A DNA stretch of 43,325 nucleotides. Source: Erysipelotrichaceae bacterium. GTDB taxonomy: Bacteria; Bacillota_I; Bacilli_A; Erysipelotrichales; Erysipelotrichaceae. The first letter of the stretch is position 1; each line of letters starts with the position of its first letter. The position numbers and the translations under genes were made by a program. Under the pieces are notes generated by a model. The model was given only the letters and a program-made list of their open reading frames with translations, made no database searches and was not told where the DNA came from. This document shows, piece by piece, positions 17,571 to 28,283 of the stretch. Location: NCBI GenBank assembly GCA_017397025.1, contig JAFQKG010000002.1, positions 1 to 43,325 on the forward strand. The letters are read 5' to 3'.

Positions 17571-17785
17571 GAAAAACGTCCCAATGCTGGGACGCTGTAA
17601 ACGTGGTACCACCCGACTTATTCAAATAAATGAATCACTTTCGGGATAACGGTTTTCGCCGGGGAATGACTTTTGCCATCCCAACTCCAAAGACCCACTT
17701 CTCAATGTGAACCGCTGCAGTTTTCACCGTCCACTGCATCTCTTAAGTCAGTTTCACAAGATACTTTTTCTTTTTCTTAGCTTTG
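17571..17785 (-). promoter_or_regulatory. T-box leader (tRNA-Trp specific) of trpS
   Basis: Read on the minus strand. AAGAGA (near 17740) and GGTGAAAA mark Stem I. The specifier is probably TGG at 17697-17695, in GAAGTGGGTC. The T-box motif GGGTGGTACCACG lies at 17614-17602. The GCGTCCCAGCATTGGGACG terminator with a T-run (17595-17571) competes with the antiterminator. Uncharged tRNA-Trp should stabilise antitermination and raise trpS expression. Confidence 0.93.
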
Positions 17786-17790
17786 AGTCT

Positions 17791-17862: not shown

Positions 17863-17890
17863 TTGAATTTAACAAAAAGAATGATATACT
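17863..17890 (+). promoter_or_regulatory. spx: Promoter of spx
   Basis: TTGAAT, 16 bases, TATACT, with TG at the extended -10 position. Confidence 0.6.
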
Positions 17891-17906: not shown

Positions 17907-18341
17907 ATGATCGTTGTATATACATCTCCAGGCTGTGCATCGTGCCGTAAAGTGAAAGCCTGGCTGAAAGACAGAAATTTAAATTATCTTGAAAAAAATA
18001 TTTTTAAAACGATTTTGAATGAAAAAGAAATCAAGCATCTCTTATCACGCTGTGAAAATGGGACTGAAGATTTGATTTCAAAGCGTTCTAAGATTGTGCA
18101 GGAGCTGAATGTAGATATGGAAGAGATGAGTATGAATGAACTTGTTGAATTCATTCAGAAAAATCCTTCTGTCTTAAAGTGTCCTATCATTTTGAATGAA
18201 CGTGTTTTTCAAGTCGGTTATGATCAGGAAGAAATTGATGCATTTGTACCTGCTGAGCTGCGAAGAATTGCGCTTGGTTCGTGCAATTCTGCCTGCCCTA
18301 ATTACAATGGATGCGGCAAATGCCGTGAAGAACTGCATTAA
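17907..18341 (+). CDS. spx: Spx/ArsC-family thiol-responsive regulator with a cysteine-rich tail
   Basis: Spx binds the RNA polymerase alpha C-terminal domain and redirects transcription under disulfide stress; its switch is an N-terminal CxxC. Here C10-A-S-C13 is in YTSPGCASCRK. NIFK and ISKRSKIVQELN follow, then CPIILNERVFQVGYDQEEI, all Spx-typical. The start at 17907 is behind AAGGTGAT. Beyond the usual end (about 131 residues) the protein carries CNSACPNYNGCGKC, with Cys 126, 130, 136 and 139, which could bind a metal or act as a second redox switch. The classical ClpXP-sensitive C-terminus is replaced. Whether it is Spx itself or an Spx-like paralogue (MgsR/ArsC-like) is unsettled. Confidence 0.85.
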   Translation: MIVVYTSPGCASCRKVKAWLKDRNLNYLEKNIFKTILNEKEIKHLLSRCENGTEDLISKRSKIVQELNVDMEEMSMNELVEFIQKNPSVLKCPIILNERVFQVGYDQEEIDAFVPAELRRIALGSCNSACPNYNGCGKCREELH

Positions 18342-18363
18342 AAAGCACGAATGTGCTTTTTTC
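18341..18363 (+). terminator. Terminator between spx and mnmA
   Basis: AAAAGCAC/GTGCTTTT stem with a GAAT loop and T-tail. mnmA starts 25 bases later, so read-through is possible. Confidence 0.75.
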
Positions 18364-18387: not shown

Positions 18388-19539
18388 ATGAAAATACTGG
18401 TTGGTTTATCGGGTGGTGTTGATTCTGCTGTTGCTGCTTATCTGTTAAAAGAACAGGGACATGATGTAACCTGCTGTTTCATGCGCAACTGGGACAGTGC
18501 CGCCAACAATGATACATTGGGAAATCCAACTCTCAATCAGGATGTTTGTCCGCAGGAAATGGACTACAATGATGCAAAGAAGGTTTCGGATGCATTGGGA
18601 CTTGAACTTTTGCGCATTGATTTCATCAAGGAATACTGGGACTATGTATTCTCCAGTTTTATTGATGAATACAAAAAAGGAAGAACTCCAAACCCCGATA
18701 TTCTATGCAACAAATACATTAAGTTTTCAAGCTTTATGGATTTTGCGAAACAGAATGGTTTTGACTGGGTCGCTACAGGACATTATGCACGTGTTGAACA
18801 TCGTCAAAATGAATCCGTTATGCTCAAGGCAAAGGATCTCAACAAAGATCAGAGCTATTTCTTGTGTCAGATTTCAAAAGAAGCGCTTGCACATACTTTG
18901 TTTCCACTAGGTGAAGTGACTAAGCCAGAAGTTAGAAAGATTGCACATGAACTCAATCTTCCGATTGCAGACAAGAAGGATTCTACAGGAATCTGCTTTA
19001 TTGGTGAACGTGATTTCCGTGAATTTTTGAAGAATTACCTTCCTGCTAAATCTGGAAATGTCATTGATGTAACAACTGGCAAAGTTTTGAAGCAGCATGA
19101 AGGGGTGCTGTATTATACCATTGGACAGCGTAAGGGATTAGATATTGGTGGACCTGGAGGGCCATGGTTTGTAGTAGGAAAAAATGTTGAGACCAATGAA
19201 CTGTATGTTGCACCGCAGTCTTGCGATGATCTTCTTTACTCTGATGCCTGTCTTGTTGAAGGAATCAACTGGCTGATTGATATTGAAGATGAAATGGACT
19301 GCATGGCAAAATTCAGATATCGTCAGAAAGACAATCCAGTTCATCTTAAGAAATTGAATGAGACAACAGTACTATGTACGTATCCTCAAAAAGTCGGTGC
19401 TGTGACATGTGGACAGGAAGCTGTTTTCTATGATGGTGATGTCTGCCTTGGAGGCGGTGTCATTGAGCAGGTGTTCTTAAAGTCAAAAGATCTCAATGAA
19501 TGCATCAAAGAAAAGCTGAAAGAGGCAAGACATGTCTAA
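18388..19539 (+). CDS. mnmA: tRNA-uridine 2-sulfurtransferase MnmA
   Basis: Thiolates U34 of Lys, Glu and Gln tRNAs. The PP-loop GLSGGVDSAVAAYLL is at residues 6-20. TPNPDILCNKYIKF holds the first catalytic Cys, and DSTGICFIGER the second. YYTIGQRKGLDIGG is typical. Start ATG 18388 follows AGGAGGAG; the frame also runs upstream through the spx 3' end, which is a shadow. It is 383 residues. It overlaps the CPBP protease by 8 bases, so the two are probably cotranscribed. Confidence 0.97.
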   Translation: MKILVGLSGGVDSAVAAYLLKEQGHDVTCCFMRNWDSAANNDTLGNPTLNQDVCPQEMDYNDAKKVSDALGLELLRIDFIKEYWDYVFSSFIDEYKKGRTPNPDILCNKYIKFSSFMDFAKQNGFDWVATGHYARVEHRQNESVMLKAKDLNKDQSYFLCQISKEALAHTLFPLGEVTKPEVRKIAHELNLPIADKKDSTGICFIGERDFREFLKNYLPAKSGNVIDVTTGKVLKQHEGVLYYTIGQRKGLDIGGPGGPWFVVGKNVETNELYVAPQSCDDLLYSDACLVEGINWLIDIEDEMDCMAKFRYRQKDNPVHLKKLNETTVLCTYPQKVGAVTCGQEAVFYDGDVCLGGGVIEQVFLKSKDLNECIKEKLKEARHV

Positions 19540-28060: not shown

Positions 28061-28069
28061 CTACTAGTA

Positions 28070-28283
28070 AATCGTAATGGATGATGAGTAATTGAAATGA
28101 AGTTTTTAGAGACAGGATGGCTGGTGTAAATCCTGAACTGAATTCAATGAAGCTGCTTCCATAGAGTGACTAATCCTCACCGTGACTTCGCGTTAAGAAG
28201 AGAATTAAGGTGCATATCGCAAGATATGAAGATGGATGGTACCGCGTAACAAATACGTTCCTTCAATTGAAGGAACTTTTTTA
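28070..28283 (+). promoter_or_regulatory. T-box leader (tRNA-Ala specific) of alaS
   Basis: AGAGACAGGATGGCTGGTG marks the distal part of Stem I. The specifier is probably GCT at 28152-28154 (GAAGCTGCTT). The T-box motif TGGATGGTACCGCG lies at 28233-28246. The terminator GTTCCTTCAA/TTGAAGGAAC with TTTTTT is at 28257-28282. Uncharged tRNA-Ala should favour read-through into alaS. Confidence 0.94.

Follow-up and report, generated by a model that had tools for sequence, protein, structure and literature searches.

Spx is the model for redox control exerted through RNA polymerase, and in Bacillus ClpXP and YjbH together determine how much of it is present. In a 43,325-nucleotide stretch of DNA from an Erysipelotrichaceae bacterium (hereafter the window, meaning the whole stretch that was analysed), a Spx-like gene ends in a cluster of cysteine codons, which raises the question of whether this tail is a genuine part of the regulator, how widely it is kept, and what it may do. 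A preliminary description had read it as a four-cysteine motif, C126-x3-C130-x5-C136-x2-C139, suited to zinc or iron-sulfur binding or to an additional disulfide switch. The features of the locus are collected in Table 1.

Table 1. Features of the spx locus and its surroundings, with positions in the window.
Feature	Position	Strand	Basis or count
T-box leader of trpS (RF00230)	17585..17787	-	
Sigma-70-like promoter candidate, TTGAAT-16-TATACT, TG before the second hexamer	17863..17890	+	Weak: 3 found vs. 2.1 expected by shuffling
spx, Spx-family RNA polymerase-binding regulator	17907..18341	+	ATG at 17907 to TAA ending at 18341, 144 aa plus stop; NCBIfam, PDB, Foldseek
C10-x2-C13, classical Spx redox switch	17934..17945	+	C10 and C13 in 137/137 Spx proteins
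Codon 92, Cys replacing Arg	18180..18182	+	R in 136/137 Spx proteins, C in the window protein alone
Conserved three-cysteine unit, C126-x3-C130-x5-C136	18282..18314	+	Exact spacing in 68/83 family sequences, 40/50 genera
Codon of C126	18282..18284	+	
Codon of C130	18294..18296	+	
Codon of C136	18312..18314	+	
Codon of C139, lineage-specific fourth cysteine	18321..18323	+	7/83 family sequences, 4/50 genera
Terminator-like hairpin between spx and mnmA	18340..18361	+	Weak: 1 found vs. 0.5 expected by shuffling
mnmA, tRNA 2-thiouridine(34) synthase, downstream neighbour	18388..19539	+	TIGR00420 above cut-off
Second T-box leader	28066..28265	+	

The window protein scored above the cut-off of the NCBIfam Spx model NF002459 (E = 5.4e-46, 155.9 bits, cut-off 123) and of TIGR01617 (95.4 bits, cut-off 75.05), and below those of NF009210 (118.7 against 159) and NF009885 (117 against 152), equivalog models that cover SpxA/Spx proteins from other lineages. 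Spx chains were the top matches of a PDB sequence search, and 7f75_G was the top Foldseek match (E = 2.1e-13) of a moderate-quality AlphaFold2 model (mean pLDDT 69, alignment of 10 sequences). Among the 137 Spx proteins that we read, G52 was found in 137, R60 in 136 and K62 in 132, and the window protein has all three. In B. subtilis these residues are described, partly in PMC2801614, as serving in the contact with RNA polymerase alpha and in activation. The family score, the key residues and the fold match show that the window protein is a true Spx. Its reading as a Spx-like regulator with an added cysteine tail was also borne out, since no cysteine followed residue 110 in any of seven plasmid-borne Spx-type proteins of Bacillales/Lactobacillales, drawn from the 20 matches listed out of 141 matching records. 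The genes for these proteins came from Priestia (three), Lactiplantibacillus, Lentilactobacillus, Lactococcus and Enterococcus and, together with the PDB chains of B. subtilis (131-132 residues) and Streptococcus mutans (120 residues), they make up our coverage of these two orders, the wider searches having been confined to one class.

When aligned with B. subtilis Spx (YjbD) over residues 1-124, the window protein shares the CxxC at 10/13, G52, R60 and K62, with 41-45% identity to the B. subtilis chains in the Foldseek alignments. It differs in being 13 residues longer (144 against 131), in the added tail of three to four cysteines and in having C92 for R92. The arginine is kept in three Spx proteins of the same genus, and C92 either truly occurs in this genome or reflects a wrong base in the assembly, which consists of 1,999,277 bases in 211 contigs and is 92.4% complete. 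In B. subtilis, R92 is described as taking different positions in the oxidised and the reduced structure, with a possible location close to a DNA phosphate (PMC2801614). The genome also encodes a second protein of the Spx/MgsR type (L002, G000:C148:6002-6322, 115 aa), which has no cysteine tail and scored 48 bits against NF002459, below the cut-off of 123; like MgsR and other short Spx/ArsC-type paralogues, it belongs to the same superfamily as Spx (TIGR01617). The ORF that follows L002 presumably encodes a DtxR/MntR-type regulator, from its resemblance to such proteins.

The four tail cysteines stand at the positions and spacing first given for them, and their codons are read in frame from the ATG at 17907. 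The preliminary description had itself named two ways in which the tail could prove spurious, its absence from all relatives and an assembly frameshift, and neither holds. The closest relatives are in frame through the tail, with identities of 90%, 88% and 75% over residues 1-144, 1-144 and 1-142, and all four tail cysteines are present in three records (L145, L146 and L147) from separate named assemblies. A frameshift as the source of the tail is thus ruled out, because relatives from separate assemblies carry it in frame. Among named records, the closest come from Erysipelotrichaceae MAGs of water buffalo caecum and of roe deer rectum, and from an uncultured Holdemania. With the CxxC excluded, cysteine makes up 413 of the 4,341 residues after P115 in the 137 proteins (9.5%) and 27 of the 15,761 before it (0.17%), an enrichment of about 55-fold in the tail, and a chance origin of the tail cysteines is therefore excluded.

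Relatives of the window Spx were found in 187/195 genomes of the family, 234/244 of the order sample and 205/296 of the class sample, the three samples overlapping. The 137 proteins read were drawn from 57 loci (L003-L059, the best matches) and 80 hand-picked regions, about one per genus in Erysipelotrichaceae and fewer elsewhere; a duplicate of the window gene (L001) and the paralogue L002 were omitted. Eighty-three of the proteins are from Erysipelotrichaceae and represent 50 genera. If looser spacing is allowed, at least three tail cysteines are found in 71 of these 83 sequences and in 43 genera. The tail is thus common in the family, and what is conserved is a unit of three cysteines and not the four of the motif; the latter is present in the window, and its last position is a cysteine in only 7/83 sequences, even if the total of tail cysteines is four or five in 30/83. 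The family consensus reads C-x3-C-P-N-[YF]-x2-C-G-x2-R, and among the 68 sequences with exact spacing the residues around the cysteines are kept to varying degrees (P in 58, N in 50, the aromatic in 68, G in 58, R in 56). Both cysteine codons are in use at each position of the triad in this set.

The distribution of cysteine numbers is discontinuous: 12 of the 83 family sequences have none, 41 have three, 29 have four and one has five, and not a single one has one or two. Within the family, the tail cysteines thus behave as a unit that is kept or lost as a whole. A tree built from the first 115 residues requires 11 changes overall for the cysteine-free state, ten of them forced by well-supported branches; it has 115 columns and 138 rows, with many weak forks and unsettled bootstrap values. 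By our reading of this tree, the tail was lost about seven times inside the family, in genera g4, g9 with g10, g36, g41, g47, g55 and part of g58. These losses are not frameshifts, because none of 16 cysteine-free spx genes showed the triad in another frame. The tail is also not essential to Spx, since about seven lineages of the family live without it.

Looking beyond the family, a triad of the form C-x(2-6)-C-x(4-5)-C was found in 64 of the 88 genera sampled and in 11 of the 17 families in which Spx was read, 13 of these 17 being represented by one to four sequences. Outside Erysipelotrichaceae, this corresponds to 10/16 families, most of them sampled by one or two sequences. The cysteines are kept in sister families and the residues around them differ from those of Erysipelotrichaceae. 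Some sister families have the spacing C-x2-C-x5-C, which we take to be reminiscent of iron-sulfur motifs. In one sister family (f2), two close cysteines were found in 14/14 sequences and the triad spacing was absent; f2 is taken as the family of Candidatus Stoquefichus and [Clostridium] spiroforme because their proteins resemble its Spx. No phage-borne copy was seen, none of 83 pattern matches in viral contigs encoding a relative. The idea of a reusable cysteine module present elsewhere in the same genome was also set aside: a degenerate DNA pattern gave four matches, including the tail itself, and among the other three, the local ORFs do not translate into the motif at two and the third had an in-frame stop.

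In Bacillus, Spx is described as being degraded by ClpXP with YjbH, both YjbH and ClpX losing zinc under oxidative stress (PMC2801614, PMC5506225, PMC8957991), and the preliminary description had compared the window tail with the short B. subtilis tail recognised by ClpXP and its adaptor. In a profile search, no ClpX zinc finger exceeded the cut-off in any of 145 family genomes (one match fell below the threshold), and none was found in the genome of the window. The ClpX model TIGR00382 likewise gave no match above the cut-off in 57 family genomes. Weak matches below it were seen in 53 of these, mostly in frames of 600-870 aa, which from their length and the part of the model matched are probably other AAA proteins. 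The controls B. subtilis, Lactococcus and eight further genomes exceeded both cut-offs. Erysipelotrichaceae thus appear, as sampled, to be without ClpX.

ClpP-like matches were found in 23/57 family genomes. Two partial ones are present in the genome of the window, at G000:C28:1-330 (model positions 4-114, at a contig end) and G000:C83:7608-7949 (model positions 68-181). In another genome, a 352-aa frame (L165, G021:C39, about 312231-313680) has two weak ClpX-like AAA matches and adjoins a ClpP match, and the two may possibly form a divergent Clp pair.

Proteins of the YjbH type (PF13743) were found in 13/95 family genomes, in 10 of them above the cut-off, and none in the genome of the window. 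When the four best PF13743 proteins were scanned, none reached an NCBIfam cut-off, and for two of the four the top PDB match was YjbH (6ghb_B). These YjbH-like proteins with 6ghb_B as top match, L140 (G032) and L142 (G076), occur in a family in which ClpX was not detected, and both genomes also carry the tail. A substitution of YjbH for a lost tail was considered and gave no clean pattern across genera: PF13743 was present in the tail-less g9 and g10 (one of two genomes in g10) and in the tail-bearing g18, g22, g32 and g34, and was not seen in the tail-less g4, g41, g47, g55 and g58.

Because ClpX is apparently absent from the family and YjbH-type proteins are uncommon in it, the tail does not represent an altered handle for ClpXP there, and the comparison with a tail recognised by ClpXP and its adaptor does not carry over. 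The limitation of Spx in Erysipelotrichaceae probably takes place by another route than ClpXP. The opposite idea, that the tail arose as a replacement for lost ClpX, was rejected as well, since cysteine tails also occur where the ClpX zinc finger is present. This domain exceeded the cut-off in 45/198 genomes of the class sample, one f2 genome has ClpX, and a cysteine-tailed Spx was found in seven ClpX-zinc-finger genomes (G199, G293, G304, G310, G321, G334 and G451); in five of these the tail contains the triad. A genome can thus have both the tail and ClpX. Within Erysipelotrichaceae the tail may nevertheless work as a stand-in for ClpX, even though it did not originate as one.

As expected of zinc or iron-sulfur ligands, at least three conserved thiols are clustered in the tail. 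No C/H/D/E column shared by the groups was found within five residues after the third cysteine as a conserved fourth ligand, and the columns in which such residues reach at least 90% over the 137 proteins are C10, C13, E29, E50, D55 and E109. A Pfam search with five tails gave nothing above the cut-off, its iron-sulfur matches being at chance level (E = 0.03-0.37), and AlphaFold2 models the tail with low confidence (mean pLDDT 54 for residues 121-130, 49 for 131-140 and 43 for 141-144). Thiols that are kept as a unit without a fixed fourth ligand would fit a thiol switch as well as a site for a labile metal or cluster, zinc and iron-sulfur not being separable on these data.

Judging from the sequences, we see about an even chance that the tail is a metal-thiolate site, with zinc or an iron-sulfur cluster, that sets the activity or amount of Spx. 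Three thiolates and an exchangeable fourth ligand would hold a labile Zn(II) or an iron-sulfur cluster, the fourth ligand being C139 in the genus of the window and something different elsewhere. This site would be stripped or oxidised in the presence of oxidants or oxygen or when metal is lost; the tail would then change in conformation or stability, and with it the activity or amount of Spx, the N-terminal CxxC still acting as the classical disulfide switch. The stress-labile thiol/metal sensor would then lie inside Spx in Erysipelotrichaceae, whereas in Bacillus it lies outside, in YjbH and ClpX. The likeness is one of analogy between zinc-thiolate sites: in Bacillus, oxidation of the sites in YjbH and ClpX is described as stabilising Spx (PMC2801614, PMC5506225), and these sites are in a separate adaptor and unfoldase, whereas in the window Spx itself carries the thiols and its binding of a metal is putative. 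A stronger form of this proposal, which we put forward tentatively and consider somewhat improbable, is that Spx in Erysipelotrichaceae and their relatives would be a one-component sensor-regulator, with a three-thiolate site that holds either a labile metal or an oxygen-sensitive cluster and directly sets its activity or lifetime.

The same cysteines could instead work free of metal, the tail forming a disulfide, either internally or with C10/C13, and serving as a relay or resolving thiol. A CxxC disulfide is described as being already at work in Spx (PMC12822559, a S. aureus preprint), C10 and C13 are invariant in 137/137 proteins, and the short loops between the tail cysteines make disulfides feasible. 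However, a simple disulfide takes two cysteines, yet three are conserved, and all three are retained or lost jointly across the 83 family sequences; we regard a pure thiol switch as possible and on the whole rather unlikely. The conserved P, N, aromatic, G and R amid and after the cysteines offer a potential binding surface, by which the tail could dock, perhaps around a structural zinc and with no sensing, to RNA polymerase or to some other protease or adaptor. Another Clp route would be possible, given the ClpP-like matches noted above and the ClpC homologue reported in Bulleidia extructa (PMC12786226), but outside the family the residues near the cysteines vary while the cysteines stay, so that a docking role seems quite unlikely to us.

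It is very improbable that the tail is a functionless cysteine-rich end left by drift. Its disappearance from about seven lineages of the family and the variable length and end after the triad are consistent with such a remnant, but the 55-fold enrichment, the lack of any intermediate among 83 sequences and the use of both cysteine codons at every triad position argue against it.

The cysteine-tailed Spx is a new form of a known regulator; the observation is larger than first described, and the preliminary interpretation is borne out in part. No description of the tail was found in the open-licence literature searched; the broader searches covered a part of the matching papers, so that a mention could have been missed. 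Term look-ups gave no mention of the tail or of a missing ClpX in four papers dealing with these bacteria (PMC5138195, PMC12786226, PMC3749518 and PMC10868615), and the term "spx" was likewise absent from the main text of the last three; the first names SpxA as a global regulator of Mollicutes. In a family that keeps Spx and is apparently without ClpX, one must ask by what means Spx is restrained, and the thiol triad is a concrete and mutable candidate. If the tail binds a metal or cluster, about twenty added residues would have turned a disulfide sensor into a metal or oxygen sensor. If Spx were indeed a one-component sensor-regulator of this kind, the best-known Gram-positive regulator of disulfide stress would have a second, independent input in bacteria that have apparently lost ClpX.

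The surroundings of the gene were also inspected. The spx and mnmA genes are adjacent on one strand in 56 of the 76 family sequences with enough flanking DNA (seven others were too short), and this adjacency was not seen in any of 54 sequences from other families. The linkage with mnmA was set aside as a clue to function, given its absence outside the family and the weak hairpin that separates the two genes in the window. Upstream, trpS is divergently oriented and preceded by a T-box leader, and a second T-box leader is present further along the window.
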